64,000 bases of DNA, taken from contig NZ_FTMN01000003.1 of the NCBI RefSeq assembly GCF_900155945.1, positions 62,001 through 126,000 of the forward strand. Reading direction: 5' to 3'. Shown here piece after piece: positions 8,997 to 29,623 of this stretch. The DNA comes from Marinobacterium stanieri. Its GTDB lineage: Bacteria; Pseudomonadota; Gammaproteobacteria; Pseudomonadales; Balneatricaceae. The number at the start of each line of letters is the position of its first letter. Position 1 is the stretch's first letter. The notes beneath the pieces were generated by a model. That model was given only the letters and a program-made list of their open reading frames with translations. It ran no database searches and had not been told where the DNA came from. Made by a program: the position numbers and the translations under genes.

Positions 8997-9014
8997 TACG
9001 TACTTCGTATTTTT
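8995..9014. terminator. Weak hairpin between convergent genes
   Basis: AATACG (8995-9000) pairs with CGTATT (9006-9011), followed by T residues. It could end transcription from either side; the stem is short. Confidence 0.35.
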
Positions 9015-9018
9015 AGTA

Positions 9019-9852
9019 TTATTTCCCTCGGTAGACGCCTTCACGTTTTTCCACGAAGGCGTTCACTGCTTCAACATGGTCATCCGTATTGTGCAGCATG
9101 CCTTGCCAGGCGGCGCAGAGTTCCAAAAAGTCAGGTAATTCATGGCGTTGCGCCTGCTTCATCAAGCGCTTGCTCATGCGTAGAGCATGGGGTGGCTTGG
9201 CGGCCATCTGCTGCGCCAGAGTCATCACACGGCTCATCAGCTGTTCGGCCGGCACCTGTTCCATCATCAGGCCCAGTTGTACCGCTTCTTCCGCATGCAC
9301 CAGCCGTCCGGTCAGGGTCATTTCCGCAGCACGCTGGTAACCGATCAGGCGCTGGAGGAACCAGGCACCACCGTCACCCGGGATGATGCCCAAGTTGACG
9401 AATGTCTCGCCAAAGGTGGCCTTTTCGGAACCGATACGGATATCGCACATACACGCCAGGTCACAGCCCGCGCCTATAGCGGGGCCGTTTACAGCAGCAA
9501 TAATGGGAACTTCGGCCTTGTGAATGGCAATCGGGATGCGTTGAATGCCTTCCCGGTATTTGCGTTCAAGTTCCAGTGCACTGCCACCAAAGGGACCGTT
9601 TCGATGGTCGCCTTCGCGATACTGCATCTCCTTTATATTGCCGCCGGCGCAAAAGGCACGGCCTGAGCCGGTAATAATCAGGACGGATACGTTGGCCGAT
9701 TGATTGGCCCATTGAATGGTGTCGACGATATCGTCAATAAGGGCTGTGCCGGTGAGGGCGTTGCGCAGATCGTCACGGTCCAGCGTCAGTGTGGCAACGC
9801 GGTCTTCCAGCGTGAGGCGGGCGTCTTGGAGGCTAGGGGTGTTGTCAGCCAT
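9019..9852 (-). CDS. Enoyl-CoA hydratase/isomerase family protein
   Basis: A 277-residue crotonase-fold enzyme. SGRAFCAGGNIKEM (oxyanion hole, about 63-76) and NGPAIGAGCDLACMCDIRIG (about 120-139) are the conserved CoA-binding turns. ATFGETFVNLGIIPGDGGAW supplies the Glu expected at one catalytic position (GETFV), while the second is Gly-Asp-Gly-Gly. Hydration or isomerisation of an enoyl-CoA is expected, substrate unknown. It stands alone, downstream of the repeat at 10041-10185, and does not belong to either main beta-oxidation operon in the window. Confidence 0.9.
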   Translation of the reverse strand: MADNTPSLQDARLTLEDRVATLTLDRDDLRNALTGTALIDDIVDTIQWANQSANVSVLIITGSGRAFCAGGNIKEMQYREGDHRNGPFGGSALELERKYREGIQRIPIAIHKAEVPIIAAVNGPAIGAGCDLACMCDIRIGSEKATFGETFVNLGIIPGDGGAWFLQRLIGYQRAAEMTLTGRLVHAEEAVQLGLMMEQVPAEQLMSRVMTLAQQMAAKPPHALRMSKRLMKQAQRHELPDFLELCAAWQGMLHNTDDHVEAVNAFVEKREGVYRGK

Positions 9853-9998: not shown

Positions 9999-10040
9999 CG
10001 CCGGCAAGGGCTGGAGAAGGGGTGTTGGCCCGCCCCCTGG

Positions 10041-10185
10041 CAGGCTGTCGAAAACCTATCTGCGTTGCCGAATGCTGCGTTAAAAACAGTCTCAAAATGC
10101 TCATTTAGCACACTAAACTGCGCTTTTTCGCCTGTTTTTGCCTGGCCTCGGCTGCCTCGATAACGTTTTTCAACAACCTGCTAAG
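10041..10185. repeat. Palindromic interspersed repeat, copy A
   Basis: About 145 bases nearly identical to 46293-46440. Both copies have imperfect terminal inverted repeats (CAGGnTGnTGAAAA type) and an internal hairpin centred on TTTAG...CTAAA, flanked by AAAACAG and CTGTTTT arms. There is no coding capacity. The layout is that of a non-autonomous miniature element or REP-like repeat; closely similar repeats are, as I recall, common between genes of marine gammaproteobacteria. This copy lies between the DUF1329 gene and the enoyl-CoA hydratase gene. Confidence 0.8.
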
Positions 10186-10202
10186 GGGCAGTTGGGTCTG
10201 GC

Positions 10203-11543
10203 TTAGCGACCCAGGCGACGAATGGCCTGGGGGGTGAAGTCGTTGTATTTGAAACGCTGGTTGAAGTCGAAACCCTTGCCCTCTTCATTGGTCAGGCTGC
10301 CCACCAGATAGCGACCGGACTGCAGGTCATAAAGGGCTTCAGCGCTGTACCAGGGGATCAGGGCGTCGCGGTAGGGGAAGGCATGGCCTTCGGCGACACG
10401 CCAGAGTTCGCCGCGAGTATCGTAGTGATCGGCGATAGCGATCTGCCAGCTATCCTCGTCAATGTAAAACACGCGCTTGCCGTAGATATGACGTTCGCCG
10501 TCCTTGAGTGTGGCTTCTACTTTCCAGACCCGGTGCAGCTCGTAGCGGGTATGGTCCGGATTCAGGTGTCCGGGCTTCAGCAGGTCGTCATAACTGAGTT
10601 CTCGGTCGGCCAGGTTGAAGCTGTTGTAGGGAATGTACAGCTCCTGTTTGCCGACCAGATTCCACTCGTAACGGTCGGGTGCGCCGTTGAAGATGTCCAG
10701 GTTGTCCGTGGTGCGTTGACCATCTGAAGCGGTGCCCGGTGCATCGTAGGCGATCTGGGGCGCGCGGCGCACGCGGCGCTGGCCCGCGTTATAGGTCCAG
10801 GCCTGGCGAGACTGCTTAATCTGGTTCAGGGTTTCGTGTACCAGCAGTACTTCACCGGTCAGGCGTGCTGGTGCTTCCACCTGCTGGACAAAGTAGAACA
10901 GGATATTGTCCTGGTCGTTGTTACCCTGGTCTTTCAGGTACTCCGGCCAGCTCATTTTTTCGTTGATACGAATTGGCGTGAAAGCGCCATTGGCTTGAAC
11001 GGGTACCTGTACAAAGGTCCGTTCCAGTGCGCCGCCACGGTAACGGGTGATGTGATTCCAGATCACTTCCAGACCATTCTGTGGAATGGGGAAGGCAAGG
11101 GTTTCATCAAAATTGCTCAGCCCGTTACCGCCGTCTGTCAGCTCTGTTTGTTCAGCGTTCTTGCGGGCCTTGGCGTACACCGACTCTGGATAGGCGGCGG
11201 TGCGATGGGTCGGATAGACCGGCATGCGGAAGCTGTCCGGGTAGCGCTTGAACAAAGCCAGCTGCCCGGGGCTCAGGCGGTCAGCATACTGGTCGACGTT
11301 GTCTGCAGTGATCACGAACAAGGGCTGTTCGTCGGCAAAGGGGTTGGTGTAACGCTCTTCGCTTTGCGCAAGGCCGCCGTTCCAGGCCGGGATACTGCCA
11401 TCGGCGTTGCCCTGCATTTCGGCACCCACAGGTGTCAGGCTTTGCCCCAGTTTATTTGCCTGTTCCGGTGATACGGCCGCGTGCGCGGGCAGAGCAATGG
11501 CCATCGCCAGCAGCAGCGGTTTGGTCGGGAAGTATGTTGTCAT
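10203..11543 (-). CDS. DUF1329 domain outer-membrane-associated protein
   Basis: A 446-residue exported protein. The signal peptide (LLLAMAIALPAHAA, about 9-22) precedes a DUF1329 domain that fills the rest; GGLAQSEERYTNPFADEQPLFVI, FSRYGDALIP-like and RVWKVEATLKDGERHIYGKRVFYIDEDSW segments are typical. DUF1329 has a LolA-like fold and is thought to handle lipids or other hydrophobic molecules in the periplasm. The gene follows the DUF1302 gene by 21 bases on the same strand, the usual pairing for this family. Substrate unknown. Confidence 0.9.
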   Translation of the reverse strand: MTTYFPTKPLLLAMAIALPAHAAVSPEQANKLGQSLTPVGAEMQGNADGSIPAWNGGLAQSEERYTNPFADEQPLFVITADNVDQYADRLSPGQLALFKRYPDSFRMPVYPTHRTAAYPESVYAKARKNAEQTELTDGGNGLSNFDETLAFPIPQNGLEVIWNHITRYRGGALERTFVQVPVQANGAFTPIRINEKMSWPEYLKDQGNNDQDNILFYFVQQVEAPARLTGEVLLVHETLNQIKQSRQAWTYNAGQRRVRRAPQIAYDAPGTASDGQRTTDNLDIFNGAPDRYEWNLVGKQELYIPYNSFNLADRELSYDDLLKPGHLNPDHTRYELHRVWKVEATLKDGERHIYGKRVFYIDEDSWQIAIADHYDTRGELWRVAEGHAFPYRDALIPWYSAEALYDLQSGRYLVGSLTNEEGKGFDFNQRFKYNDFTPQAIRRLGR

Positions 11544-11564
11544 TATTGTCGCTCCTCAACTCTG

Positions 11565-13505
11565 TCAGAAGGATACCGATGCACTGAGGGACAGGAAATC
11601 CCGGTCATCAATCGCGTTGAAATCGCCACCAAAGTAGTTGGTGTAACCCAGCTGGAAACGGTAGCGGTTCAGGTAGTCGGCGGTCAGGCTAAGACCCAGG
11701 GCTTTTTCGCCTTCACGGAAGGCTGCGCCAGGCTCTGGTCCGTTACCATAAACGCCATGCTTGAAACTCACCTGAGGTGTCAGGTTAACCCCGGCAAAGG
11801 CGTTGGGGTAGTTCAGGGAAGCGCGCAGGACGTAGCCCAGAGAGTCTTGAGTTACAAACCCCTCATCATCGCCAGAGGCGTAGCCGTAGGTACCGGCGCG
11901 GCCGTATTTGAGGGCGTTGGCGCTCTCGTCCAGACCGTGTACGTGGGTCCAGCCCAGTTCACCTACCAAAGACAGACGGCTGGCACCCAGCACGCGATCA
12001 TGGAAGCTGACCAGGCTGCTTTGTACCTGAGTCACATCAAACAGGCCAAAACCTTGCACCTCGCCACCGGCGCCGGAATTGGCGACCAGCTGATCGGCGG
12101 CGGTGTTACCGATACCGCCAGAGAACTGCGTCAGGATGGCGCCGACCAGCAGCGGGCCATTGACCTGCACAGGCACGTCCTGTTTGTGTGAGATTTCACC
12201 GGACCAGGCCAGATCACCCACATTGGTGTTGAAGCTCAAGCCGATCATGCTGATCTCCTCCGGATAGGAGGTGAAGTAGCGGCTTTGGAATACGCCGGCG
12301 CTGCCCGCCTGAGTGGCCGCGGTTTGCGCAGCCTGTGCCGCAGCCGCTTGCTCAGCAGCTGTGGGTGCCATGGGGTTGGCTGCATTGTCCATGATGTACT
12401 GGGTGGCAGCTGCCTGGCCTACCGCCTGGAGATCCGCTGCGGAGACTGGCGTATTGACCCCGCTGGTGACCGGCAGACGGCTATGGTAGCGGGCGAAATA
12501 GAGACCGAATTCCGTGTTATTCAGCTGCTCCGAGAAATAGCGCATGGCGAAGCCGAACTGACCGTCATCATCGGCTTCGCGTCGGCCGTCTGCGTGTCGG
12601 TAGACGACCGGGTCAAAACCGAGTGCCGCAGCGGTGAAGTCAGTGTTGAAGTATTGCTGGTCATTCAATCCAAGCGGGACGCGGATGCCGTTACAGCCTT
12701 CAGCAGCGAAATCGTTGGTTGAAAAATAGGTACCGCAGCCATCAATGGCCGTAGGTTCCCACTGCAACTGATAGAAAGCTTCAGCACTGATGTTTTCATT
12801 TACGCCCAGTGACATAAACAGCTGATTGGAGGGGAGCAGGGCATCGCGCACCTCGGCACCAGGGCGTCGAATGGCGTTGACATCAAAACTGTTGATGCTG
12901 TTTAAACCGCCCTGGATAAAGGCGCTTTCACCCCAGTTAACTACCTGGCGACCCAAACGCACATCCAGCGGGTGCTGACCCATTTCACCCAGGTCGAAAC
13001 CGGCGTAGACATAGGCATCCAACAGCTCGGCACCGGAGAATTTGGCGTAGTCGTTGAAGTCGTCATCATTCAGTTCTGTGCCAGGCGTGTAGCCGTTGGC
13101 CGTATGGCCATGGGCACGACCCTCGTTTTCCAGTTCAAAATCGAACCAGTATTTACCGCGGGCAAAAAAGCCCATATTTTCATAGCGAAGATCCAGCTCA
13201 TGGATACCCTTGAACACTTTGGAGAAGGTTTCACCCTGCTCGAAGTTCTGATTGCCATCGTCGTAGCTGCCGGAGCCTGCGCTGGTGCCGCCATTAGGCT
13301 GAGAAATCAGGCCTGGGTCAGCTTCCTCCAGTCTCCAGCTTGCACCCAGCGATAATTGAGAGTCGAAACGGCCCTCAATTTCCCCCAGGTTGAAAGAGAC
13401 GGCCTGTGCGGTTGGTGCGGCAGCGACCAACAGAGCCAGTAGAGTCGGCTGTGTACCCGGAACGCGTCCGAAGCGGCGGAGAAAAATGCGTTTTTTTATT
13501 TCCAT
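11565..13505 (-). CDS. DUF1302 outer membrane beta-barrel-like protein
   Basis: A 646-residue protein with an N-terminal signal peptide (basic KKRIFLRRFGR, then LLALLVAAAPTAQA) and a long, beta-rich body ending in aromatic Phe (SLSASVSF), as expected for an outer membrane barrel. VSFNLGEIEGRFDSQLSLGASWR after the cleavage site and the motif RLGRQVVNWGESAFIQGGLN are DUF1302 signatures. A low-complexity Ala-rich loop (AAEQAAAAQAAQTAA) is present. GTG at 13514 is an alternative start, but GGTGA lies six bases before the ATG at 13505. It is the first gene of the pair with DUF1329 and is divergent from an AraC regulator. Confidence 0.9.
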   Translation of the reverse strand: MEIKKRIFLRRFGRVPGTQPTLLALLVAAAPTAQAVSFNLGEIEGRFDSQLSLGASWRLEEADPGLISQPNGGTSAGSGSYDDGNQNFEQGETFSKVFKGIHELDLRYENMGFFARGKYWFDFELENEGRAHGHTANGYTPGTELNDDDFNDYAKFSGAELLDAYVYAGFDLGEMGQHPLDVRLGRQVVNWGESAFIQGGLNSINSFDVNAIRRPGAEVRDALLPSNQLFMSLGVNENISAEAFYQLQWEPTAIDGCGTYFSTNDFAAEGCNGIRVPLGLNDQQYFNTDFTAAALGFDPVVYRHADGRREADDDGQFGFAMRYFSEQLNNTEFGLYFARYHSRLPVTSGVNTPVSAADLQAVGQAAATQYIMDNAANPMAPTAAEQAAAAQAAQTAATQAGSAGVFQSRYFTSYPEEISMIGLSFNTNVGDLAWSGEISHKQDVPVQVNGPLLVGAILTQFSGGIGNTAADQLVANSGAGGEVQGFGLFDVTQVQSSLVSFHDRVLGASRLSLVGELGWTHVHGLDESANALKYGRAGTYGYASGDDEGFVTQDSLGYVLRASLNYPNAFAGVNLTPQVSFKHGVYGNGPEPGAAFREGEKALGLSLTADYLNRYRFQLGYTNYFGGDFNAIDDRDFLSLSASVSF

Positions 13506-13737
13506 TTCGTTCACCGAGACGTTCTTATTTTTATCCTGATTCGGCAGGGGCTTGGTATCTCATTTTTTAATCAATGAGTTGTGAGGCTTTGGTTGTATTC
13601 CAGTGTGGCCTTCACGCTATTCATAATCCATGGCGCTGATACTGTTCTCAATGACAAAGCCGTGCAGATTGACTGACAAAAGCAGTCCAGTTGGAGTACA
13701 TTCGAGCTCAGTATACGAATAATAAAAGGTGGACAGG

Positions 13738-14820
13738 ATGATTCAGCGCACAGTGACGGTGCCCTCGGGATATGTACTCCAGTTGTTGCAACAGGCCCGA
13801 TCACAGGGGGTCGATACGGATGAGCTGCTGCAGGCGGTCGGTATCGATGGCAATGAAATCGAGACGCTGGCTGAGCTCAGCGCCGAGCGTGTTGGTGCAC
13901 TGTATCAGCGCCTGATGTACATTGCCCAGGATGAGTTTTTTGGCATGGTCAGCGGTGGCAAGGTGCCCAACGGAACCTTCCGCATGATGTGCCACGCCAT
14001 TATTCACTGTGGCTCGCTGAAGAAGGCTATCTACCGTGCCAGTGCTTTTCACGAGATCTGTCGTGGTGCGCAAATCAAACCTGTGCTGGTGCAGAAAGGT
14101 CGCTATGCCAAAGTCTCGTTCGGGCCGGTTGATCACGCTGAAATCGACTTTGATGCCCTGGTGCAGCAGGCTCCGCCTGAGCGTATCCGCTCCACGCTTT
14201 CCATGTGGCACCACTTTATCAGCTGGCTGATTGGCGCCCAGATCGAACTGAAGGCAGCCTATTTCACTTTCTCGGAACCTGAAGACGCCGAGTTTTACCG
14301 CAAGCTGTTCCGCTCGGAAGTACGCTTTGACCAGCACGATAACGCGTTGGTATTTGCGGCAAAGTACCTTGATCAGCCACTGGTGCAGACCGAAGAAACG
14401 CTGCGCAGCTTCCTGAAAACAGCACCCTATCAGCTGATTGCCATGGTCAACGATGACGCATCTCTCACGTCCCAGGTGGAGGCATTAATCGGCAAGGGCT
14501 TCAGTCGCCCGCTGCCCAGTGCGGAGGAAATTGCGGCCACACTTAACTTGTCTGTTTCCACCTTGCGCCGTCGTTTACTGGAAGAGAATACGTCCTACCA
14601 GACCATCAAGGACGTGTGCCGCAAACGCGCAGCCCTGCATTACATGGGGTCGCCGCAGTTGTCGATCAATGATGTGGCTGAACTCATGGGGTTTGATGAC
14701 CCGTCCGCCTTCTTCCGCTCGTTCAAGCGCTGGACCGGCATGACGCCGGGTGAGTATCGCCGCAGTGACGTCTATCGCCAGCAGCTGCTGACGGAAAGCC
14801 TGTCAGTGGAGGACGCTTAA
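13738..14820 (+). CDS. AraC family regulator of the DUF1302/RND module
   Basis: A 360-residue regulator of the OruR/ArgR-like AraC class: an N-terminal arabinose-binding-like domain (about 15-200) and a C-terminal AraC helix-turn-helix (EEIAATLNLSVSTLRRRLLEE and VAELMGFDDPSAFFRSFKRWTGMTPGEYRR). It lies between the divergent DUF1302-DUF1329 pair and the codirectional YCF48-RND pair, so it probably controls both. I chose ATG 13738, eight bases after AAAGG, over the GTG at 13729. The same class of regulator precedes the operon at 37753. Confidence 0.9.
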   Translation: MIQRTVTVPSGYVLQLLQQARSQGVDTDELLQAVGIDGNEIETLAELSAERVGALYQRLMYIAQDEFFGMVSGGKVPNGTFRMMCHAIIHCGSLKKAIYRASAFHEICRGAQIKPVLVQKGRYAKVSFGPVDHAEIDFDALVQQAPPERIRSTLSMWHHFISWLIGAQIELKAAYFTFSEPEDAEFYRKLFRSEVRFDQHDNALVFAAKYLDQPLVQTEETLRSFLKTAPYQLIAMVNDDASLTSQVEALIGKGFSRPLPSAEEIAATLNLSVSTLRRRLLEENTSYQTIKDVCRKRAALHYMGSPQLSINDVAELMGFDDPSAFFRSFKRWTGMTPGEYRRSDVYRQQLLTESLSVEDA

Positions 14821-14972
14821 ACAAGGGTTTGAATAATCATTGACGCAGAATGTCAGTGATTGAGGCGGGTTTTGCTATTGCCGCAACACGCGCCTGAGGT
14901 GATGATGGCTGACATAAGAAGTCGGCCGCTCACGGCCGGTCTCCCGATAATGACAACAAGAACGGGGGTGCC

Positions 14973-16067
14973 ATGCACAAGATCCTGTTGTTCGGTCTCT
15001 GGCCGATACTTTTCCTGCCTATCGCTTTGCCGTCCTTCGCCGCCAGCCCGTTTGACCGTGCTCAAGCTACCAGCCTTGTCTCGGCTGGAGCAGCGCACGG
15101 ATTGCTGCTGGATATTGTCAGTGTTCCTGGTTCCAGTCGTTTGATCGCGGTAGGCGAACAGGGCAGCATCCTCTTTTCGGACGATCAGGGCCAACAGTGG
15201 CAGCAGGCCAAGGCACCCGTTGCCGTGTTACTCACGGCGGTGCAGATGGTGACATCTCAGCAGGGCTGGGCGGTTGGCCATGATGGTGTTGTGCTGCATA
15301 CAGGCGATGGTGGTCTGAGCTGGCAGGTGCAGCTATCGGGTCAGGATCTGCTCAGGGTGCAGCAGCAAGGATTACAGCAGGCGCTGGACGTTGCCGAACA
15401 GACTGAAAATGCAGCTCAGAGCGATGATTTGCAGTGGTTGCTGGAGGATGTCGAATTCGCGCTTGATGACGGCGCCATGCCGACACTGCTGGATCTCTAT
15501 TTCATCGACGAACAACGCGGTTTTGTCGCAGGTGCCTATGGCCGCATGTTTGCGACCCTGGATGGTGGCAATAACTGGGTAAGCTTGGGTGACCGTCTGC
15601 CGAATCCGGATCGCATGCATTTGAACAGTCTTCTGCTGAGCACGAGTGGACGCTTGCTGGTCGCGGGAGAAGCCGGCCTGCTGGTATACAGCGATGACCT
15701 GGGGGAAAGCTGGCAAACAGCAGAATCGCCCTATGAGGGTTCATTCTTCGCGCTGGCAGAGAGAGATCGTCTCTATGTTTTGGGATTGCGAGGCCATCTG
15801 TTCAGCTCGGCGGATGGTGTTAACTGGCAGGCGGAATCTGCCGGCACCGATGCAACACTGAACGCAGCGGTCAGTGCATCAGGAAAGCTCTACCTGCTGG
15901 GCCAGGGCGGCCTGGTGATGAAGCATCAGAATAACGGTTTTACGCCGGTTTCTTCTCAATCCCGCAATAGCTTTGCTGCAGGTGTGCTGTTGGATGGCCG
16001 CCTCATTCTGGCGGGTGAAGGTGGTATTACCACATTGCCTCTGGCAGAGCAGGGAGGTGCACAATGA
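14973..16067 (+). CDS. YCF48-like beta-propeller periplasmic protein
   Basis: A 364-residue protein with a signal peptide (ILLFGLWPILFLPIALPSFAA) followed by a beta-propeller. Sialidase-like Asp-box or BNR repeats recur: SDDQGQQWQQ, TGDGGLSWQV, LDGGNNWVSLG, SDDLGESWQT, SADGVNWQ. This matches the YCF48/photosystem II assembly factor-like family, which in non-photosynthetic bacteria sits beside RND genes. Its stop overlaps the RND start (ATGA), so the two are translationally coupled. The role is presumably as a periplasmic partner of the transporter. Confidence 0.88.
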   Translation: MHKILLFGLWPILFLPIALPSFAASPFDRAQATSLVSAGAAHGLLLDIVSVPGSSRLIAVGEQGSILFSDDQGQQWQQAKAPVAVLLTAVQMVTSQQGWAVGHDGVVLHTGDGGLSWQVQLSGQDLLRVQQQGLQQALDVAEQTENAAQSDDLQWLLEDVEFALDDGAMPTLLDLYFIDEQRGFVAGAYGRMFATLDGGNNWVSLGDRLPNPDRMHLNSLLLSTSGRLLVAGEAGLLVYSDDLGESWQTAESPYEGSFFALAERDRLYVLGLRGHLFSSADGVNWQAESAGTDATLNAAVSASGKLYLLGQGGLVMKHQNNGFTPVSSQSRNSFAAGVLLDGRLILAGEGGITTLPLAEQGGAQ

Positions 16068-18433
16068 GTCGCCTGGATACCCTGCTGCTGGCGCCGGTTC
16101 GGGGTGCCGAGCGTCTGCTGGAGCAGCTGCTGTTTGGCCATCGGGCGCTGGTGGCGCTTGGCTTTCTGATACTCACGCTGCTGCTTGGCTGGCAGGCCAC
16201 ACAGATACGCCCCGATGCCAGCTTCGTCAAAATGATCCCGTCATCGCATCCCTATGTGTCAAATTACCTGGAGCATCGTGACGAGCTTTCAGGCCTTGGC
16301 AATAGCATCCGCGTGGTCGTTGCAGCCAAGGATGGAGACATCCTTCAGCCAGAGTTTCAGCAGACGCTCAAGGCGGTAACGGATGAACTGTTCTTTCTCC
16401 CCGGTGTGGATCGCTCTGCACTGAAGTCCATCTGGACGCCTAATGTGCGCTGGACTGAGGTGACGGAAGAGGGCTTTGTCGGTGGTCCGGTCATTCCAGA
16501 AGATTACGATGGCTCGGCAGCGTCACTTGAACAACTTAAGGTCAATATTCTGCGCTCCGGTCAGCTGGGGCGCCTGGTAGCCAATGATTTCGGTTCGGCT
16601 CTGATTCAGGTGCCCCTATTCGAGCGCCTTCCGGAAACCGGTGAGAAACTCGATTACCAGCAGTTTTCCAAGCGATTGGAAACGCTGGTGCGTCAGCAAT
16701 ACAGCTCAGATCAGGTCGATATCCATATCACGGGCTTTGCCAAGGTGGTGGGGGATCTGATTGATGGCGCTGCACAGGTTGCCACCTTCTTCGCCATCGC
16801 CTTTGCGGTGACGCTGGTTCTGCTTTACCTGTATTCGCACAGTGTTACAGGCACACTTATTCCGCTGTGTTGCTCACTGATCGCGGTGGTGTGGCAGCTG
16901 GGGCTGTTGAACTGGCTTGGGTACGGGCTGGATCCTTACTCCATGCTGGTACCCTTCCTGGTGTTTGCCATCGGGGTCAGCCATGGCGTTCAGGTGGTGA
17001 ACAATGTGCGCATCGAAGCGGCTGCCGGGGCGGATAAGCTTACGGCTGCACGCAAGGCGTTTCGTACCATCTTCATCGCCGGTTTTACAGCGTTGCTGTC
17101 AGATGGGCTTGGCTTTGTCACCCTGATGGTGATCGATATCCAGGTGATTCAGGATCTGGCCGTGGCGGCTTCACTGGGCGTGCTGGTGATTGTGGTGACC
17201 AACCTGCTGTTGTTGCCTCTGCTGATTTCCTGGGCAGGGGTGGGGCAGCGCTCCATCCATAAAACACGCCACGGGGTTGAGCGCAGTGCCGGGCTTTGGC
17301 GTGCACTGGTATGTTTCTCGCGGCCCAAGGGGGCACTCGCGGCGCTGGCGGTTGCCGTTCTGCTGGCCTGGTACGGCTTTAATGCCAGTCGTGATCTTCA
17401 GATAGGGGACTTGAGTGCCGGTGCACCCGAGTTGCGCGAAGACTCGCGTTACAATCTCGATAACGCCTTTGTGACGGCCAACTACAGCAACTCCAGCGAT
17501 GTTTTCGTGGTCATGGTGAAAACGCCTGCCGAACAATGCAGTCGCTTTGAAACCCTGCAGTTGGTGGATCGCTTCCAGTATTACCTCACCAATGTGGCGG
17601 GTGTGCAGAGCAGCGTATCACTGGTGGATGTGGCCGAGCGGGTAACAGCGGGCCTCAATGAGGGCAGCCTGAAGTGGCGCAGCGTCAGTCGCAATCAGTA
17701 TGTCATCAACTCCTCGTTGCGTTACGTACCTTCGGGGCTGATGAACTCCAACTGCTCCCTGTTGCCGGTGATACTGTTCCTGGAGGATCACAAGGCGGCA
17801 ACACTGCAGCGAGTTTCCACGGCCGTTGATGCCTTTGCTGATCGGCATAACAGCGATGAAATCCAGTTCATGATGGGCGCAGGCAACGCCGGTTTTGAAG
17901 CCGCCACCAATGAGGTGATTGCGGATGCTCAATATGAAATGCTGCTCTGGGTGTACGGCGTGGTCAGCCTGTTATGCCTGCTTACATTCCGGTCGCTGCG
18001 CACGGTCGCCTGCATTATTCTGCCGCTGGCGCTGACATCGTTGCTGTGTCAGGCCCTGATGGCGAAGCTGGGTATCGGGGTGAAAGTGGCAACCCTACCG
18101 GTAATTGCACTGGGCGTGGGTATTGGCGTGGATTACGGTATCTACATCTACTCCCGCCTGAACAGCTTTTTGCAGCAGGGCATGGCCTTGCCGGAAGCCT
18201 ATTACGAAACGCTGCGCTCCACGGGCAAGTCAGTGGCCTTCACTGGTCTGACACTTGCCATTGGCGTGGTCCTTTGGGTGTTCTCACCCATTCGTTTCCA
18301 GGCCGATATGGGCGTGCTGCTCACCTTCATGTTCCTGCTCAACATGCTGGGTGCGCTTATCCTGTTGCCGGCACTGTCATGCCTGCTCAACTACCGTCGT
18401 GAAACCCGCGAAGTGGCTCAGACCGTACTCTGA
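16064..18433 (+). CDS. RND/MMPL family transporter (HAE3-like)
   Basis: A 789-residue inner membrane transporter. It shows the duplicated RND plan: a first helix at about 25-45, a periplasmic domain to about 220, a block of five helices, then a repeated helix-periplasmic loop-helices pattern from about 425 onward. FRTIFIAGFTALLSDGLGFVTLM and LRSTGKSVAFTGLTLAIGVVLW are equivalent helices of the two halves. DPYSMLVPFLVFAIGVSHGVQ and GVGIGVDYGIYIYSR carry the conserved charged or polar relay. The family moves lipids, hopanoids or other hydrophobic molecules by proton motive force. It has no adaptor or TolC partner nearby. Confidence 0.9.
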   Translation: MSRLDTLLLAPVRGAERLLEQLLFGHRALVALGFLILTLLLGWQATQIRPDASFVKMIPSSHPYVSNYLEHRDELSGLGNSIRVVVAAKDGDILQPEFQQTLKAVTDELFFLPGVDRSALKSIWTPNVRWTEVTEEGFVGGPVIPEDYDGSAASLEQLKVNILRSGQLGRLVANDFGSALIQVPLFERLPETGEKLDYQQFSKRLETLVRQQYSSDQVDIHITGFAKVVGDLIDGAAQVATFFAIAFAVTLVLLYLYSHSVTGTLIPLCCSLIAVVWQLGLLNWLGYGLDPYSMLVPFLVFAIGVSHGVQVVNNVRIEAAAGADKLTAARKAFRTIFIAGFTALLSDGLGFVTLMVIDIQVIQDLAVAASLGVLVIVVTNLLLLPLLISWAGVGQRSIHKTRHGVERSAGLWRALVCFSRPKGALAALAVAVLLAWYGFNASRDLQIGDLSAGAPELREDSRYNLDNAFVTANYSNSSDVFVVMVKTPAEQCSRFETLQLVDRFQYYLTNVAGVQSSVSLVDVAERVTAGLNEGSLKWRSVSRNQYVINSSLRYVPSGLMNSNCSLLPVILFLEDHKAATLQRVSTAVDAFADRHNSDEIQFMMGAGNAGFEAATNEVIADAQYEMLLWVYGVVSLLCLLTFRSLRTVACIILPLALTSLLCQALMAKLGIGVKVATLPVIALGVGIGVDYGIYIYSRLNSFLQQGMALPEAYYETLRSTGKSVAFTGLTLAIGVVLWVFSPIRFQADMGVLLTFMFLLNMLGALILLPALSCLLNYRRETREVAQTVL

Positions 18434-18463
18434 GCCCGTTTTTGCATGAGTCATGAACAAGCC

Positions 18464-18622
18464 TCAGGTATCCAGCAAGGATGCCTGAGCGCTTTCTGCC
18501 TGCTGCTGTAGAAACGCCTGAAGGGTAGGCGCCAGCAGTTCATCTACCGATTTGGCTTTGCCAGGATCTATACGCAACGGTGTAAGGTTACTTAAAGTAA
18601 TTGATCCACTAATGGCAGTCAC
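18464..18622 (-). CDS. Small unknown protein (52 aa), coupled to the upstream gene
   Basis: A GTG start (18622-18620) overlaps the stop of the upstream 141-residue gene (GTGA), and 52 codons follow to a TGA at 18464. The product begins MTAISGSITLSNLTPLRIDP and ends QQQAESAQASLLDT; it is predicted helical in the second half. The overlap and the clean codon usage argue that it is real. Its N-terminus (SNLTPLRID) loosely recalls the RIDSLTT start of its neighbour. I do not recognise a family. Confidence 0.5.
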   Translation of the reverse strand: MTAISGSITLSNLTPLRIDPGKAKSVDELLAPTLQAFLQQQAESAQASLLDT

Positions 18623-19044
18623 AGGGTTTTCCCCTGTTGAGCTATTTCCTGAATACCCTCCGACCCTTTGCTGCCGCCTGCCAGCTGGCGCTCGATCTCT
18701 TCCTCAATCATTGCTTCAATTTTCATGCGCTCTTCAAACGGCATCGCGGCCAGGGCTTCTTCGGTCAGCCCCATTTCCTGAAGCATCTGGTAACGAATAC
18801 GCTCGGCTGGGGACATCTGCAGGATACGCAGCAGCTCTTCGCGGGCATTCTGCTCCACCACTTGCTCAGCCTGGGAGAAATCGGGACCAGACACAGCTTT
18901 ATCCTGCTCCAGAGTCTCCTTGCTCTGAGTGGCCGTCTTGGCGGCTTCTTCCATCAGCAGTGCAGCAAAGTCCATCTGTTTGTTCTCATGACTGATTTTG
19001 CTCTGAGAAAACGTATGGGTAGTGAGTGAATCGATCCTGATCAT
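18619..19044 (-). CDS. Unknown protein with charged helical C-terminus
   Basis: A 141-residue cytoplasmic-looking protein, no signal peptide or membrane segment. Residues about 20-70 are polar and rich in Glu, Lys and Gln (DFAALLMEEAAK, ETLEQDKAVS). Residues about 75-130 form a strongly helical, charged segment (ILQMSPAERIRYQMLQEMGL, TEEALAAMPFEERMKIEAMI). I cannot assign a family. The ATG at 19044 has AAGGAA six bases upstream; the longer frame back to 19083 has none. The 52-residue gene follows with a four-base overlap. Confidence 0.7.
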   Translation of the reverse strand: MIRIDSLTTHTFSQSKISHENKQMDFAALLMEEAAKTATQSKETLEQDKAVSGPDFSQAEQVVEQNAREELLRILQMSPAERIRYQMLQEMGLTEEALAAMPFEERMKIEAMIEEEIERQLAGGSKGSEGIQEIAQQGKTL

Positions 19045-19471
19045 CTGGGGGTTCCTTGGCTGGGTTATAAAAAGTCTTAGCAAGGTTTGAGCCAGAATGA
19101 TGGTTTATTAAAATCAATGAGTTGCAAGACTGTATGGCAGTTTTGTCTTTATGTGAGGCAATATCTTGCCGGGGTGCCTGTTGCCGATTGGCACGAACCG
19201 GTAGGTAGCAAGCACAGCCATGCACTGTGACCGGAGGGTGTTGTACTGGTAAATCTGAGTGAAATACCTCAGTATCACCTCCGCATGGTAATCGGGCTGC
19301 AAAGGATGTAGCCCTAACCCTGTGAAAAGTATTCATGCTCGTTTTCAAGGAGGAAGATGGCTGTGATATTCCCGTACTCACGTTCAGTCATTTCATTTGC
19401 TCCAGAAGGCGTTTGCCTTTTATCAGGCATACCCGCATGACATTTTAACCCTTAGTAAATGGAATAGCTGA
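19045..19471. other. 427-bp gap without a supported gene
   Basis: I see no convincing gene. Short hairpins are present, such as CACAG/CTGTG at about 19215-19230 and CTGAG/CTCAG at about 19255-19272. Short ORFs exist on both strands but have no ribosome site or recognisable product. Confidence 0.5.
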
Positions 19472-19989: not shown

Positions 19990-20010
19990 GTTTTATCATT
20001 TGTAATTTTT

Positions 20011-20043: not shown

Positions 20044-20146
20044 TATATGGACCATCCTTGATGGACATATTGCTTCGTCGCTTACAGCCTTTTGATGCTT
20101 TTAGGCATACACTACCCGCTCCTGAATCAATCTGTATTTGGCCTCT

Positions 20147-21616: not shown

Positions 21617-22807
<1,191 letters not shown>

Positions 22808-24955
22808 TTATCCAAAGTAGGTCTGGCCGGCGGCTGCCATGGCGCGCATTTTGTCGGTCGGCTGGTAGAGTTTGCCCAGTTCTGCATGCTGGTCAGCCAA
22901 ATCGCAGAATGCCTGCAGACCCATCTGATCGATGTAGAACAATGCACCGCCACGGAACGGCGGCAGGCCGATGCCGTATACCAGGCCCATATCCACTTCG
23001 GCAGGTGTTTCGACGATGCCATCTTCCAGGCAGCGTACAGATTCAATGCACAGCGGGATCATCATGCGGGCAATGATTTCTTCATCGCTGAATTCGCGGG
23101 CCGGGCCGACCACGCCTTCCAGCAGGGCCGGCAGTTCCTCATCAACTAGCTTCTTCGGTTTGCCCTTGCGGTCCGGCTCGTAGCGATAGAAGCCCTTGCC
23201 GTTTTTCTGACCCAGACGCTGTTCCTTGTAGAGACGGTCGATCACGGTTTCGCCTTCATTGCGCATGCGATCCGGGAAGCCATCTGCCATTACTGCTCCG
23301 GCGTGCTTGGCGGTATCAATGCCGACCACGTCGAGCAGGAAGGCCGGGCCCATGGGCCAGCCAAAGCGTTCCATCACCTTGTCTACCTGACGGTAATCGG
23401 CGCCGTCACGCAGCAGCCCGGTAAAGCCCGCGAAGTAGGGGAAGAGGATACGGTTGACCAGGAAGCCCGGGCAGTCGTTAACCACGATAGGCGTTTTCCC
23501 CATGGCCTTGGCGTAGGCTACGGTGCGGCCAATGGCTGCTTCAGAGCTTTTCTCACCGCGGATAACCTCAACCAGCGGCATCTGGTGTACCGGGTTGAAG
23601 AAGTGCATGCCGCAGAAGTTTTCCGGCTTTTTCAGGGCCTTGGCCAATTCCGTGATGGAGATGGTGGAGGTGTTGGAGGTGAGGATGGCACCTTCCGGCA
23701 ACTGGGTCTCCACCTCGGCCAGCACGCTCTGTTTGATCTTCGGATTCTCGACCACGGCTTCGACGACCAGGTCCACATTGCCGAAATCGCCATAGCTCAG
23801 GGTCGGGCGGATACGGCTCAGGCTGGTGGCCAGCTTGCGGCCGTCAATTTTGCCGCGCTCCAGCTGCTTGTTAAACAGTTTGGAGGCTTCGCTAAGACCC
23901 AGCTGCAGGGCATCTTCACTGATGTCCTTCATCAGAATCGGCGTGCCGCGAGACGCGCTCTGGTAAGCGACGCCACCGCCCATGATACCGGCACCCAGCA
24001 CCGCTGCCTGGCGCACTGGCTCGGCATCGGCTTCATAACGCTTGCTGGTGCGCTTGATCTGCTGATCTTTCAGGAACAGGCCGACCAGTGCCGGTGTGAC
24101 CTCATTGGTGGCCAGCTTGGCAAAGCCCTTGGCTTCAACAGCCTGCGCATCATCACGGGTCATGTTCGCGTGTTTCTGGATGGACGCCAGAGCTGCCATC
24201 GGCGCCGGATAGTGCGGACCGGCTTTGGCACCGATCATGCCCTTGGCCGATTCGAACGCCATCATCTGTTCGATCTGGTTCAGTTTGATCGGGCTCTGCT
24301 TTTCGGTACGGCGTGCCTTATAATCGAACTCGCCGGCGACGCAGCTGCGCAGCAGGTCCAGAGCGCCATCGCGCAGCAGTTCGGGTTCGACGATGGCGTC
24401 TACAGCACCCACTGCCAGAGCATTTTTCGCACGCTGCTCGGTGCCAGCGCAGATCCATTCGTTGGCATTATCCACGCCGATCAGACGCGGCAGGCGCACG
24501 GTGCCGCCCCAGCCCGGGTAGATACCCAGTTTCACTTCCGGCAGGCCGACCTTGGCGTCGCTGTTCATGACACGGTAGTCACAGGCCAGGCAAAGCTCGA
24601 AACCGCCCCCAAGCGCGACGCCATTGATGGCAGCCACCGTCGGGCAGGGCAGGTCTTCGATGCTGTTGAATATGGCGTTCATCTGCTGCAGGCCGCTGGC
24701 GATCTCATCAGCGCCGGCTGAGAACAGACCGACAAATTCGGTGATATCGGCACCGACAATGAAGCTGTCCTTGTCACTGCGAACCAGCAGGCCTTTAAGG
24801 TCGTCCTGAGCTTTCAGGGTGGTAACGGCCTGTTGCAGTTCAGCCATGGTGGCCTGGTTCAGTTTGTTGGCGCTATCGTCCCGGCTGGCAAAGACCAGCT
24901 CATACAGCCCGGGTTCGATGGCAGCCAGTTGTATTGCTTTTCCTTCCATCAACAT
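22808..24955 (-). CDS. fadB: Fatty acid oxidation complex subunit alpha
   Basis: A 715-residue fusion. The N-terminal crotonase domain (about 1-190) has [16 protein letters not shown] and [20 protein letters not shown]. Residues about 310-500 form the NAD-binding 3-hydroxyacyl-CoA dehydrogenase domain with [16 protein letters not shown] and [26 protein letters not shown] holds the catalytic His region, and a C-terminal dehydrogenase domain ends the protein. It hydrates enoyl-CoA, epimerises and oxidises hydroxyacyl-CoA. ATG 24955 has GGAG seven bases upstream and gives the usual 715-residue length; the frame extends 14 codons further without a site. Confidence 0.97.
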
Positions 24956-25036
24956 GGTCAGACTCCGTGGCAATCGCGGTCGGTGATTGAATTGCATGAC
25001 CGCAGGTTGTCATTGTTAAGTGTGATTTCGGCAGGC

Positions 25037-25604: not shown

Positions 25605-27281
25605 TCAGGCCACGTCCTGGTGATTGGTTTTGAGCATGCGGCGCAGAATCTTGCCCACGTTGGACTTGGGCAGTTCCGGCACAAACTCAATCACCTTGGG
25701 TACCTTGTAGGCGGTCAGGCGCTCACGGCACCAGTCGCGAATGGCCTGCTCGCTCAGCTGGTCATCGCGGGTGACGGCAAAGACTTTCACCACCTCGCCG
25801 CTGACCGGGTCGGGTACACCGATGGCGGCGCATTCGACGATGTCAGGGTGTTCGGTAACGATGTCTTCCACTTCATTGGGGTAGACATTGAAGCCGGAGA
25901 CGATGATCAGATCCTTGGCGCGGTCGACAATGCGCAGGTAACCGCCTTCTTCCATTACCGCAATATCGCCGGTGATCAGGTAGCCGTCATCGGTAAAGCT
26001 GGCGCGGGTGGCACTTTCGTTGTGCCAATAGCCGGCCATTACCTGAGGCCCGCGCACGCAGAGCTCGCCGGGCATGCCTTCGGGCACGGCTTCACCGTCG
26101 CCGCCCATAATGAAAACCTCGGTTTCAGGAACCGGGCGACCGATGGTGCCGCAACGTATCGCTTCGGGCGGGTTTATGGAGACCGCCGGAGAGGTTTCGG
26201 TGAGGCCGTAGGCTTCGATCACAGTGCAGCCGGTGACCTTGCGCCATTGCTCGCCAGCTGCGTGGGTCAGAGCCATGCCGCCAGACAGGGTCATGCGCAG
26301 CTTGCTGAAGTCCAGGGCGCGGAAGTCTTCGTTGTTGCACAGTGCCACAAACAGGGTGTTGAGGCCGAGGAAGGTGGTGAAAGGCCAGTTGCCGATCTCC
26401 TTGACCAGCCCCGGCAGATCGCGCGGGTTGGGAATCAGGATGCTGTGCCCGCCGCTGGCCATAATGATCTGTGCCACGGTAAAGGCATAGATGTGGTACA
26501 GCGGCAGCGGGGCGATGACGTTGGCAGCCCAGTCGCTGGCGACATCACGGATGATCACGTGGCCCTGCAGCATATTGGACAGCAGGTTGGCGTGCGTCAG
26601 CATGGCGCCCTTGGATACGCCGGTGGTGCCGCCGGTGTATTGCAATACGGCCAGGTCACCGGGTTTGCGCTCTACCTTTTCATAGGGTTTATCGATATGG
26701 CTGAGCAGCGCAGTGCGCAGGCTGATGGCACCCGGCAGGGAGTACTTGGGCTCCATCTTCTTGATGTATTTGACGGCCGCATTCAGCAGGTGACGCTTCA
26801 CAAAACCGTGCAGATCGCCCACCTGGGTCACGAATACGTTCTGGATATCGGTTTTGGCGAGGATCTTCTCGGCGTTATGCGCCATGCTCTTGTGGATCAC
26901 CAGGGCCTTGGCACCGCTGTCGCGGAACTGGTGTTCCATTTCCGACGGCGTGTACAGTGGGTTGGTGTTCACCACAACCAGGCCGGCACGCAGGGCACCA
27001 AAGAGTACTACCGGGTACTGAATCAGGTTGGGCAACTGCACGGCGATACGGTCACCGGGCACCAGGTCGGTTTCCTGCTGCAGATAAGCCGCAAAGGCCG
27101 CCGACAGCCGGTCCAGTTCGGCGTAGCTCAGGGTGCGGCCCAGGCTGGTAAAGGCAGGGCGCTCGGCGTAGCGCTGGCATACGTCGGCGAAGAAATCGGT
27201 GATGGCTTCATATCCCTCGGGGTTGAGTGAGGGCGGGATATGTTGGCCGTTGTCGTTCATCCTAATCATGTTCATGCCCAT
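25605..27281 (-). CDS. fadD: Long-chain fatty acid-CoA ligase
   Basis: A 558-residue AMP-forming ligase. The P-loop YTGGTTGVSKGAMLTH, the adenylate motif EAYGLTETSPAVSINPP, the hinge DGYLITGDIA and the C-terminal VDRAKDLIIVSGFNVYPNEVE with GKILRRMLK are all intact. It activates long-chain fatty acids to acyl-CoA at the inner membrane. ATG codons at 27281, 27275, 27269 and 27260 are all possible; 27281 gives the usual FadD length. It sits between an acyl-CoA dehydrogenase gene and DUF2889-fadBA, all on the same strand, so one operon covers activation and each step of the cycle. Confidence 0.95.
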   Translation of the reverse strand: MGMNMIRMNDNGQHIPPSLNPEGYEAITDFFADVCQRYAERPAFTSLGRTLSYAELDRLSAAFAAYLQQETDLVPGDRIAVQLPNLIQYPVVLFGALRAGLVVVNTNPLYTPSEMEHQFRDSGAKALVIHKSMAHNAEKILAKTDIQNVFVTQVGDLHGFVKRHLLNAAVKYIKKMEPKYSLPGAISLRTALLSHIDKPYEKVERKPGDLAVLQYTGGTTGVSKGAMLTHANLLSNMLQGHVIIRDVASDWAANVIAPLPLYHIYAFTVAQIIMASGGHSILIPNPRDLPGLVKEIGNWPFTTFLGLNTLFVALCNNEDFRALDFSKLRMTLSGGMALTHAAGEQWRKVTGCTVIEAYGLTETSPAVSINPPEAIRCGTIGRPVPETEVFIMGGDGEAVPEGMPGELCVRGPQVMAGYWHNESATRASFTDDGYLITGDIAVMEEGGYLRIVDRAKDLIIVSGFNVYPNEVEDIVTEHPDIVECAAIGVPDPVSGEVVKVFAVTRDDQLSEQAIRDWCRERLTAYKVPKVIEFVPELPKSNVGKILRRMLKTNHQDVA

Positions 27282-27410
27282 ATGCTTGTTGTTGTGAGGG
27301 CTGTTCTGTCGGGCAGCTTTTATTGCCAGACAATCGGGCGTTGCCAAGAGGCTTTGTCCTGGCAGCGGTGGTTGACCAATCTCCCTGGAAAACCACCGCA
27401 TGTGTGCTGC

Positions 27411-29207
27411 TTAGAAGATGAAGTTGTCTTCCGGCAGCTCCATCAGGTTGTCGGAACCGGACAGCATGGTTTCGACCAGACCGCGGGTACGCGGCAGGAT
27501 GCGCTCGAAGTAGAAGCGCGCGGTGGTCAGTTTGCTGCGGTAGAACGCCGCATCACCTTCACCGGCAGCCAGCTTCAGCTGTGCAGCCTGTGCCGAACGT
27601 GCCCAGAAGTAAGCCAGAGTGACGTAACCGGAATACATGACGTAATCCACGGAGGCGGCACCGACTTCTTCCTTGTTCATCATAGCCTTCATACCGATCT
27701 GCTGGGTCAGATCACCCCATTCGCTGTTCAACTTGGCCAGAGGGCCGGTGAACGCGCGCATTTTCGGATCTTCCTCAGCGGCCTTGCAGAACTTGTGAAT
27801 CACCTTGGTGAAGCTCTTCAGCGTTTCACCCTGGGTCATCAGTACCTTGCGGCCCAGCAGGTCCAGTGCCTGGATCTGGGTGGTGCCCTCATACAGCATG
27901 GAGATACGGCAATCGCGTACGTTCTGCTCCATGCCCCATTCGCTGATGTAGCCGTGGCCACCGTACACCTGCAGGGCGTGGTTGGCGCTTTCGAAACCCA
28001 CTTCGGTCAGGAAGGCCTTGGCGATAGGGGTCAGGAAGGCCAGCTGGGTATCTGCATTGGCTTTTTCCTCACCGTCGGCCAGCTTCACCTTGTCCACCAG
28101 CATGGAGCAGTAGTAGATCAGCGCACGGCCGCCTTCGGCGAAAGCTTTCTGCGTCAGCAGCATTTTGCGCACTTCAGGGTGCACAATGATCGGGTCGGCG
28201 GCTTTGTCCGGTGCAGCCGGGCCAGTCAGCGCGCGCATCTGCAGACGCTCACGGGCGTAGGGCAGGGAGTTCTGGAAACCCCACTCGGCATGGGCCAGGC
28301 CCTGCATGGCGGTGCCCAGACGTGCAGTGTTCATGAAGGTGAACATGCAGTTCAGGCCCTTGTTGGCCGGGCCAATCAGGTAACCGGTGGCAGCATCAAA
28401 GTTCATGACACAGGTGGAGTTACCATGGATACCCATTTTGTGCTCGATGGAGCCACAGTTAACGGCATTGCGCTCACCTGCACCGCCATCGGCAGTCGGC
28501 AGGTGCTTGGGTACGATAAACAGGGAGATGCCCTTGGTACCGGCCGGCGCATCCGGCAGGCGTGCCAGTACGATATGGACAATGTTGTCGGCCATGTCGT
28601 GTTCACCGGCAGAGATGAATATCTTGGTGCCGCTGATGGCGTAGCTACCATCGGCATTGGGTTCGGCTTTGGTACGCAGCAGGCCAAGGTCGGTACCGCA
28701 ATGGGGCTCGGTCAGACACATGGTGCCGGTCCACTCGCCGGAGACCAGCTTGGTCAGGTAGGTCTGCTTCTGCTCTTCAGTGCCGTGTTCTTCCAGTGTA
28801 TTCATGGCACCGTGGCTCAGGCCCGGATACATGCCCCAGGCCCAGTTGGCGGTACTGGTCAGTTCGCTGACCACCATGCCGAGGGAGTCCGGCAGGCCCT
28901 GGCCACCCCATTCGGGGCTGTGCGACAGTGAAGGCCAGCCGCCTTCGACAAACTGCTGATAAGCTTCACGGAAGCCGGTGGGGGTTGTGACCTGGCCGTC
29001 TTCAAAGCGGCAGCCTTCCTGGTCACCCACCTGATTCAGCGGGGCCAGAACTCGCTCAGCGAAGCGGGCGCCTTCTTCAATGATGGCGCTGACCATATCC
29101 GGTGTCGCTTCTTCGCAGCCCGGCAGCTGACTGTAATGCTGCTCGAAATCCAGCAGATCGTTGAGTACGAAATGAATGTCTTTCTGTGGCGCCTTGTACT
29201 CGGGCAT
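27411..29207 (-). CDS. Acyl-CoA dehydrogenase with C-terminal extension (FadE-type)
   Basis: A 598-residue flavoprotein. The core dehydrogenase domain has MCLTEPHCGTDLG and MGIHGNSTCVMNFD (FAD and acyl-CoA binding), and VRDCRISMLYEGTTQIQALD with the catalytic Glu of YEGT. A C-terminal extension from about 470 (FTKVIHKFCKAAEEDPKMRA onward to DNFIF) marks the long, roughly 600-residue PA0506-like class used for long or medium acyl chains. It is the first gene of the fadD-fadBA block; the electron acceptor ETF is not in the window. Confidence 0.93.
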   Translation of the reverse strand: MPEYKAPQKDIHFVLNDLLDFEQHYSQLPGCEEATPDMVSAIIEEGARFAERVLAPLNQVGDQEGCRFEDGQVTTPTGFREAYQQFVEGGWPSLSHSPEWGGQGLPDSLGMVVSELTSTANWAWGMYPGLSHGAMNTLEEHGTEEQKQTYLTKLVSGEWTGTMCLTEPHCGTDLGLLRTKAEPNADGSYAISGTKIFISAGEHDMADNIVHIVLARLPDAPAGTKGISLFIVPKHLPTADGGAGERNAVNCGSIEHKMGIHGNSTCVMNFDAATGYLIGPANKGLNCMFTFMNTARLGTAMQGLAHAEWGFQNSLPYARERLQMRALTGPAAPDKAADPIIVHPEVRKMLLTQKAFAEGGRALIYYCSMLVDKVKLADGEEKANADTQLAFLTPIAKAFLTEVGFESANHALQVYGGHGYISEWGMEQNVRDCRISMLYEGTTQIQALDLLGRKVLMTQGETLKSFTKVIHKFCKAAEEDPKMRAFTGPLAKLNSEWGDLTQQIGMKAMMNKEEVGAASVDYVMYSGYVTLAYFWARSAQAAQLKLAAGEGDAAFYRSKLTTARFYFERILPRTRGLVETMLSGSDNLMELPEDNFIF

Positions 29208-29623
29208 GGTGGTGAACCCCTTGTGTTGTTATTGGGCTTGGACACTCTCGGGTGACGTTGAGAGGTCTTTCAGTGTTGCACCAAGCATCATGGATTCCGC
29301 TGGCCAAGCCAATGACATTTCACGCCAGTTGCACTGGCATTTATTGTCATTTGGCTTCTAAGCCCCATGTTTGCGCAGGGTTGGTTGAAGTTTGTATGTT
29401 TTGAAAGGTGACATTATCGGTCAATCGACTGTCATAATATGACAAGCATGGGCTATGGCTTACGTGTTTGCGTTGCTTATAGCGCGTTGCGCGTAGACAG
29501 GATTCACTTTTGCAGGCAGAGGGTTGATTTATAAGGTAAATCCGTTGAATATCCCGCCTGCGCAAGGAAGGCGCCGGTGCACAGGGATAAAGTGTGCTCA
29601 GCTGTTTGCATACGGTAGTCTCT
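29208..29623. promoter_or_regulatory. Intergenic control region with nested palindromes
   Basis: A 416-bp region between divergent fadE-type and endonuclease genes. A perfect 7-1-7 palindrome TGTCATAATATGACA lies at 29430-29444, preceded by further TGACA/GGTCA half-sites (29408-29424). A second structure at 29311-29351 has AATGACA and TGTCATT arms around a perfect GCCAGT-TGC-ACTGGC hairpin (29324-29338). The shared TGACA half-site suggests a regulator binding several places. No -10/-35 pair is certain. Confidence 0.5.

Follow-up and report, generated by a model that had tools for sequence, protein, structure and literature searches.

An AmeABCD-type transport module around an AraC-family regulator in Marinobacterium stanieri and its apparent place in a long-chain fatty-acid degradation regulon

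What is carried by a set of envelope proteins encoded on both sides of one AraC-type regulator gene, and what switches these genes on, are the questions raised by a locus of Marinobacterium stanieri. The locus lies in a stretch of 64,000 nt (NZ_FTMN01000003.1, positions 62,001 to 126,000 of the forward strand), which is called the window here and whose own numbering is used throughout. Four genes of the locus encode proteins of the DUF1302, DUF1329, YCF48 and RND families, the families that make up the AmeABCD module of Castellaniella defragrans. The explanation we consider best, with a probability of about 0.6, is that this AmeABCD-type transport module is switched on by the AraC-type regulator jointly with long-chain fatty-acid degradation.

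Gene set, layout and operator-like elements

Reading frames and their Pfam and NCBIfam matches confirmed the five genes, and the families assigned to them, of an initial annotation of this DNA. On the minus strand, the DUF1329 gene (10203..11543) encodes a LolA-fold protein of the AmeB type and 446 amino acids (PF07044, 534 bits; LolA_like, 34.7 bits), probably a periplasmic shuttle, and the DUF1302 gene (11565..13514, with a possible alternative ATG start at 13505) encodes an AmeA-type beta-barrel of 649 amino acids (PF06980, 560 bits), probably of the outer membrane. On the plus strand lie the gene of the AraC-family regulator with its Arabinose_bd domain (13729..14820; PF12625 and PF12833; alternative ATG possible at 13738), that of an AmeC-type YCF48/PSII_BNR beta-propeller protein (14973..16067; 364 amino acids; PF14870, 74 bits) and, overlapping the latter by 4 bp, that of an AmeD-type MMPL/RND transporter (16064..18433; 789 amino acids; PF03176, MMPL 114 bits). 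The DNA-binding domain of the regulator is of the AraC type (PF12833 and PF00165 in Pfam). For the RND protein the top NCBIfam match was HAE3, which scored 149.9 bits (cut-off, 351.9); its place in the AmeD lineage of that family is putative. All four AmeABCD families thus co-occur in the window, and the contiguous A-B-C-D order, which is present in a paralogous copy of the same genome (L031), is not found here. Because the AraC gene splits the module into divergent pairs, we class it as a variant without the published AmeABCD organisation. A tripartite RND pump of the HAE1 type was also considered and was rejected, as Pfam recognized neither a membrane-fusion protein nor a TolC-type channel among the five genes.

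The initial annotation had placed all five genes under the control of one intergenic region. Two gaps, 13515-13728 and 14821-14972, were found instead, each with one copy of the same element. In genomes of the AraC-centred layout both gaps keep a conserved block (five genomes for the first gap, four for the second), and both blocks are one 30-bp element in identical orientation relative to the gene served. In an alignment of 38 sites the element shows a direct repeat of TGTYA half-sites set 22 bp apart, a geometry that fits the direct-repeat operators of AraC-type regulators. The first candidate operator, O1 (13649..13678, minus strand), lies about 133 bp upstream of the DUF1302 gene, has 0 mismatches to the joint pattern of O1 and O2 and shows as a conserved footprint in five genomes; the second, O2 (14851..14880, plus strand), lies about 92 bp upstream of the YCF48 gene and matches that pattern too. 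A third, O3 (29310..29339, minus strand), lies about 102 bp upstream of a fadE-type gene and, at 25.8 bits, is the weakest of the three.

The joint O1/O2 pattern, with up to 3 mismatches, had two matches in the window against 0.01 expected. A looser O1/O2 pattern with up to 2 mismatches returned O1 and O2 only from the whole 4.68-Mb genome, and its reversed control returned 0. As pattern and weight matrix were both built from O1/O2-type sites, the perfect scores at these two sites arise by construction. The matrix was derived from ten DUF1302- or YCF48-side sites of five genomes, one of which (in genome G026) precedes a fadE-type gene ahead of YCF48. It scored O3 at 25.8 bits, the next best other site of the window at 17.0, and five column-shuffled matrices gave 7.7 to 18.8. 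A profile trained on 38 sites, R1, scored O3 at E 0.002, O3 being itself among the training sites.

The element and the regulator in related genomes

An AraC orthologue (at least 50% identity) was present in 23 of 57 related genomes. R1 was run on all 57 under tightened filtering, at the cost of weak matches, and gave 70 matches at E≤0.01. The genomes with a match number 21, each of them one of the 23 that have the orthologue, and 0 of the 34 genomes lacking it had a match; kinship inflates these counts. Targets were assigned on the same strand when the extrapolated start lay within 450 bp, and 67 of the 70 matches precede DUF1302, YCF48, fadE-type, etfB, fadB or thiolase genes: DUF1302 in 16 cases, YCF48 in 10, FadE in 20, EtfB in 10, FadB in 4, a second FadE type in 4 and thiolase in 3. 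Two more precede genes of GDSL esterases, and one (G013:C6:5043) has no sensible target. Assignment was done in two batches. The first took 38 of 73 R1 rows, namely 33 at E≤0.0024, all 33 of which were assigned, and five weaker ones, of which three were assigned and two, at E 0.057 and 0.059, were missed; the second took the other 37 of the 70 rows and assigned 34.

Many of the sites counted were also R1 training sites, so the R1 E-values are optimistic, and for this reason a held-out model, R2, was built from nine DUF1302/YCF48 sites of five genomes and run on 36 genomes. Nine of its 20 matches at E≤0.01 were training sites; the remaining 11 lie before fadE (2), etfB or fadB (5), GDSL esterase (2) and DUF1302 (2) genes, all in genomes that have the AraC orthologue. 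The two esterases, predicted autotransporters in two relatives (L202:1942-3753(-) and L206:2174-3988(-)), have the element upstream, and the one that was searched has EstA (3kvn) as its closest solved relative. The weight matrix likewise found sites before fadE and an etf-fadB stretch in loci of Pontibacterium (L052) and Amphritea (L056-L058).

Of 18 further AraC stretches, 14 have the AraC gene divergent from DUF1302-DUF1329 with the element between them; the YCF48-RND pair was not found inside those 14. All parts stand side by side in three Marinobacterium genomes, in G011 and in G026. In G026 a fadE-type gene sits between AraC and YCF48, directly behind the element, and a further element lies 60 bp before the etfB of an etfBA-fadBA run. 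Across 36 genomes of the family, the RND gene (at least 60% identity) and the AraC gene (at least 50%) occurred together in 21, AraC alone in 2, RND alone in 0 and neither in 13; the RND cut can admit RNDs of the M2 type, the second RND of the M. stanieri genome being 61% identical. Within the genus, five of the eight genomes examined have neither the AraC orthologue nor the element.

The 67 of 70 targets and the co-occurrence with AraC lead us to the view that the module is apparently part of an AraC-type regulon for long-chain fatty-acid degradation. It is conceivable that the element is owned by another regulator, to which the AraC gene is merely a neighbour. Elements do also precede genes distant from the AraC gene, and the pairing of protein and element is predicted from co-occurrence and geometry. 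We nevertheless hold this to be improbable in view of the confinement of the matches to 21 of the 23 genomes with the orthologue, even with kinship inflating that count, the position of the element between AraC and divergent DUF1302 genes in 14 of 18 stretches, and its direct-repeat geometry. A fatty-acid-like signal would then control the binding of the AraC protein to its elements.

Several results weigh against this regulon. At 3 mismatches, a slightly different pattern found a third match in the genome (C8:449713) that is not at a fad gene, and over 12 genomes the reversed control at 3 mismatches gave 4 matches against 39. O3 was not recovered by R2 at E≤0.05, and the weight-matrix scan found no element upstream of fadBA in the window. 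Two genomes, G028 and G032, have the AraC orthologue and no R1 match at E≤0.01. Between E 0.018 and 0.048, R2 had matches in three genomes without the orthologue (G004, G030 and G035), and some of its matches at E 0.01-0.05 stand at places outside the assigned target set. Moreover, the regulon, the binding and the transport are all read from sequence and structural models.

The known regulators of fatty-acid degradation, PsrA, FadR and FadP, control fad genes and are TetR or GntR proteins (PMC5343134), whereas the candidate in the window is of the AraC family, not of those two, and has another operator. 'AraC' has 0 occurrences in the main text of that source. These observations suggest a further type of regulator for fatty-acid degradation beside PsrA, FadR and FadP. 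Among the matches listed, from open-licence papers, we found no published report of the AraC-centred layout or of an AraC-type regulon linking fad genes with the module.

Protein folds, cargo and direction of transport

The DUF1329 model (predicted local distance difference test score, pLDDT, 91) had its best match in LolA3 of Porphyromonas gingivalis (9tp6; template-modelling score 0.84 by target and 0.47 by query length) and also matched the solved DUF1329 structure 4z48 (0.76 by target and 0.44 by query length). By the fold of its model, the protein is a LolA-fold protein of the LolA superfamily. The DUF1302 model (pLDDT 75 for the whole model) is a large beta-barrel closest to OccK/OprD porins, with Z 16-18 and a root-mean-square deviation of 3.0-3.6 over about 290-330 residues against OprD/Occ structures. 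Its sequence did not place it in that family, as Pfam at E≤0.001 gave DUF1302 alone and identity to the OprD/Occ matches listed was at most 16%. No FadL entry occurred among the 50 structural matches listed, which does not by itself exclude a FadL-like fold.

The YCF48 protein is similar by sequence to solved Ycf48/HCF136 propellers, and the RND sequence resembles MmpL3, MmpL4 and MmpL5 as well as the RND transporter 5khn, which we take to be the hopanoid transporter HpnN. Two residue pairs, S306-H307 and D690-Y691, are invariant across 13 aligned RNDs and presumably lie in transmembrane segments 4 and 10 (TM4 and TM10), respectively. MmpL proteins have D-Y in both segments. With these positions assumed, S-H replaces the D-Y of TM4 and D690-Y691 is kept, giving an unusual proton-relay pair; the TM4 expression IG[IV]SHGVQ was found in 76 of 99 RND frames.

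Membership in such a regulon would point to a cargo of long-chain fatty acids or their esters. The element joins transport, surface hydrolysis (in two relatives), activation by FadD (encoded behind fadE), dehydrogenation by FadE and Etf and, in relatives, FadBA, a path that would lead from fat outside the cell to acetyl-CoA and makes this cargo the best guess. The guess agrees with work on Pseudomonas putida, in which PP_0765, PP_0766, PP_2018 and PP_2019 were all needed for growth on Tween 20 and co-folding suggested a transport complex (PMC10866462, 2024). Two of the proteins in question belong to the DUF1302 and DUF1329 families, and the others are a transporter of the efflux type and a periplasmic protein (PMC10866462); judging by their gene numbers they come from two separate loci, whereas in the window both pairs flank one regulator.

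Related gene sets have been reported with other substrates. AmeABCD of C. defragrans, described in 2018, comprises the same four families, DUF1302, DUF1329, COG4447 (YCF48-type) and an HAE3 RND protein, whose four genes form a single cassette within a monoterpene island (PMC6394551); the module of the window instead forms two divergent operons around AraC, element-linked to long-chain beta-oxidation. Predicted catabolic regulons of betaproteobacteria contain the same four genes as COG4447-COG1033-PF07044-DUF1302 operons, there under AphR/AphS/AphT and for aromatics (PMC6449761). In the benzene-degrading ORM2a, DUF1329, YCF48-related and MMPL proteins of a nanopod cluster were expressed together (PMC13101534), and Delftia Cs1-4 has DUF1302 and DUF1329 genes within its phenanthrene gene cluster (PMC3110197). 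Both of these cases concern aromatic substrates, and no AraC/fad link was found in the available text of the two reports. Given its homology to AmeABCD and to the P. putida Tween genes, the module itself is not new. The initial annotation had called the cargo not known, a statement that omits the phenotypes published, in the available text, for the homologous modules of C. defragrans, P. putida and ORM2a. Its proposal that a hydrophobic compound could be carried across the envelope remains the best reading, in line with the barrel-like DUF1302, the LolA-fold DUF1329, the RND protein and the operator-like element that the module has in common with fatty-acid catabolic genes; the single control region attached to it was wrong, and both the idea and the gene set had already been published (PMC6394551, PMC10866462, PMC6449761, PMC13101534).

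DUF1302/DUF1329/YCF48/RND modules adjoin several pathways for hydrophobic compounds and may be importers or exporters. AmeABCD was interpreted as an efflux system (PMC6394551), and the module of the window might similarly serve tolerance, pumping out fatty acids that are in excess or harm the membrane, or else hydrophobic by-products, during beta-oxidation, with co-regulation reflecting fatty-acid stress. The RND/MMPL relatives of known function, such as MmpL3, MmpL4 and MmpL5, are exporters, and the DUF1302 model also matches the exporter AlgE (Z 16.1); these points, like the published interpretation of AmeABCD, count against an inward route. Deletion of ameABCD lowered tolerance, with worse growth above 5 mM limonene even with acetate, and under carbonyl cyanide m-chlorophenylhydrazone (CCCP) the mutant held slightly more Nile Red (PMC6394551). 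The betaproteobacterial homologues were interpreted as coping with toxic aromatics (PMC6449761). On the other hand, the Ame mutant was impaired chiefly when hydrocarbons were the only carbon source, a defect that acetate relieved at lower limonene, and mutant and wild type hardly differed in real-time Nile Red efflux, so that, as far as the available text goes, a loss of supply fits this mutant as well (PMC6394551). The identified targets of the element are otherwise assimilatory, and the surface esterase of two relatives would free more fatty acid. We therefore regard efflux for tolerance as possible, though rather unlikely.

Inward transport is favoured but unproven. In the mechanism that we propose, the module would ferry long-chain fatty acids, or esters of these, from one membrane of the envelope to the other. 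DUF1302 would be the outer-membrane channel, DUF1329 a LolA-like shuttle, YCF48 an adaptor attached to the pump and the RND protein the inner-membrane component, driven by protons; delivery would be inward, to FadD and FadE. A more specific proposal, to which we give somewhat less than an even chance, is a proton-driven lipid importer in which the RND protein and the LolA-fold shuttle work in reverse, carrying long-chain fatty acids or esters from the OprD-like barrel to FadD as the transport arm of the AraC fatty-acid regulon, with paralogues for steroids and aromatics. The predicted three-site regulon, the predicted cargo and the contrast within the genus in AraC and element make the question directly testable. 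AupAB of Marinobacter was considered as a precedent and was not used, as a text search did not bear out the description of AupB as an RND protein.

Distribution, paralogues and neighbouring genes

The initial annotation had described the module as repeated in many genomes, and this held. Among the named loci (the best 80 of 587, some shortened by contig ends), YCF48 stands immediately 5' of the RND gene in all 80, and 54 also contain DUF1329. DUF1302 was found in 26, an under-count because the profile missed diverged copies. The closest named relative among these 80 is Marinobacterium sediminicola, with an RND 87% identical and its genes arranged as in the window (locus L051). Across the class, DUF1302 and DUF1329 gave strong matches (E<1e-50) in the identical 12 of 94 genomes, and at E≤0.001 DUF1329 matched in 43 of the 94 and DUF1302 in 25. 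The weaker DUF1329 matches lie mostly in frames of about 260-310 residues, which we take as putative LolA-like proteins. In the 16 of these 94 genomes that were searched for MMPL, several of the short DUF1329-like genes directly adjoin MMPL genes: G104, G140 and G143 have the short gene, an MMPL gene and a DUF1302-like match together, and G109, G114, G121 and G142 have the short gene and an MMPL gene. Judging from these coordinates, the module could be a more elaborate version of what is found in a possible wider RND-LolA-barrel class.

The recurrence of MMPL and short DUF1329-like genes in other gammaproteobacteria, some with a DUF1302-like barrel, would also suit outward export, by the RND and the LolA-like protein, of a lipid or surface component that is needed for the use of fat, such as a surfactant or an outer-membrane lipid. 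LolA itself moves its cargo outward. The assigned targets, however, include no lipid-synthesis gene, all being genes of envelope transport, esterase or beta-oxidation, and we think such an export very improbable. The fatty-acid transport module favoured here has several paralogues in its own genome, which holds five DUF1302 genes, five DUF1329 genes and four AmeD-like RND genes (on contigs C16, C9, C8 and C11), each of the latter adjoined by a YCF48 gene. In the C9 copy (L031:9879-20000), a DUF1302-DUF1329-YCF48-RND-Usp run is adjoined by genes resembling acyl-CoA dehydrogenase (fadE), FadB and thiolase genes and by an AraC-like gene. The weight matrix found no element site of at least 10 bits in L031, for which reason this copy probably has a different regulator and substrate. 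The C8 region (C8:755000-814999, L032-L034) has two DUF1302/DUF1329 pairs and one YCF48-RND pair across 60 kb. Its genes include HsaA-like and 3-ketosteroid dehydrogenase-like ones, both below cut-offs, and FadD3 and 4-hydroxy-2-oxovalerate aldolase, both above; the region would thus encode a pathway of the steroid type whose transport module is split up. The C11 copy (L035) adjoins a gene for a ring-hydroxylating dioxygenase-like large subunit, below cut-offs. As far as these matches indicate, each paralogous module seems to lie near a different set of catabolic genes.

Nearby beta-oxidation genes, also part of the initial annotation, were recovered in the window by matches to fadA, fadB, a long-chain acyl-CoA ligase and an acyl-CoA dehydrogenase, all on the minus strand. 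The FadE-type acyl-CoA dehydrogenase gene (27411..29207) encodes 598 amino acids with Pfam acyl-CoA dehydrogenase domains, and the protein had no NCBIfam match at E≤1e-60. The gene of the FadD-type long-chain fatty-acid--CoA ligase (25605..27401) follows 9 bp behind fadE and scored 829 bits with NF004229, whose cut-off is 879. The fadB-fadA pair (21617..24997; fadA 21617-22795, fadB 22808-24997), with FadA and FadB equivalogs above the NCBIfam cut-off, is a probable pathway partner of the module. The fad strand has no element in the roughly 0.6 kb that separate fadB from fadD (24998-25604).

Between the RND gene and that of a WYL regulator (20138-20845) are 1.7 kb (18434-20137) in which the four frames scanned had no Pfam match. 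Rfam gave no match at the gathering threshold in window positions 10000-30000, and no tRNA was found in the window. A second set of the beta-oxidation type (36536-44074) comprises an AraC-like frame, a BktB-type thiolase, a FadB-like protein and an acyl-CoA synthetase, with element scores of at most 17.0 bits by the weight matrix. Just past the module, at 8295-9852, a gene for a type II haloacid dehalogenase and one of the crotonase family adjoin each other.

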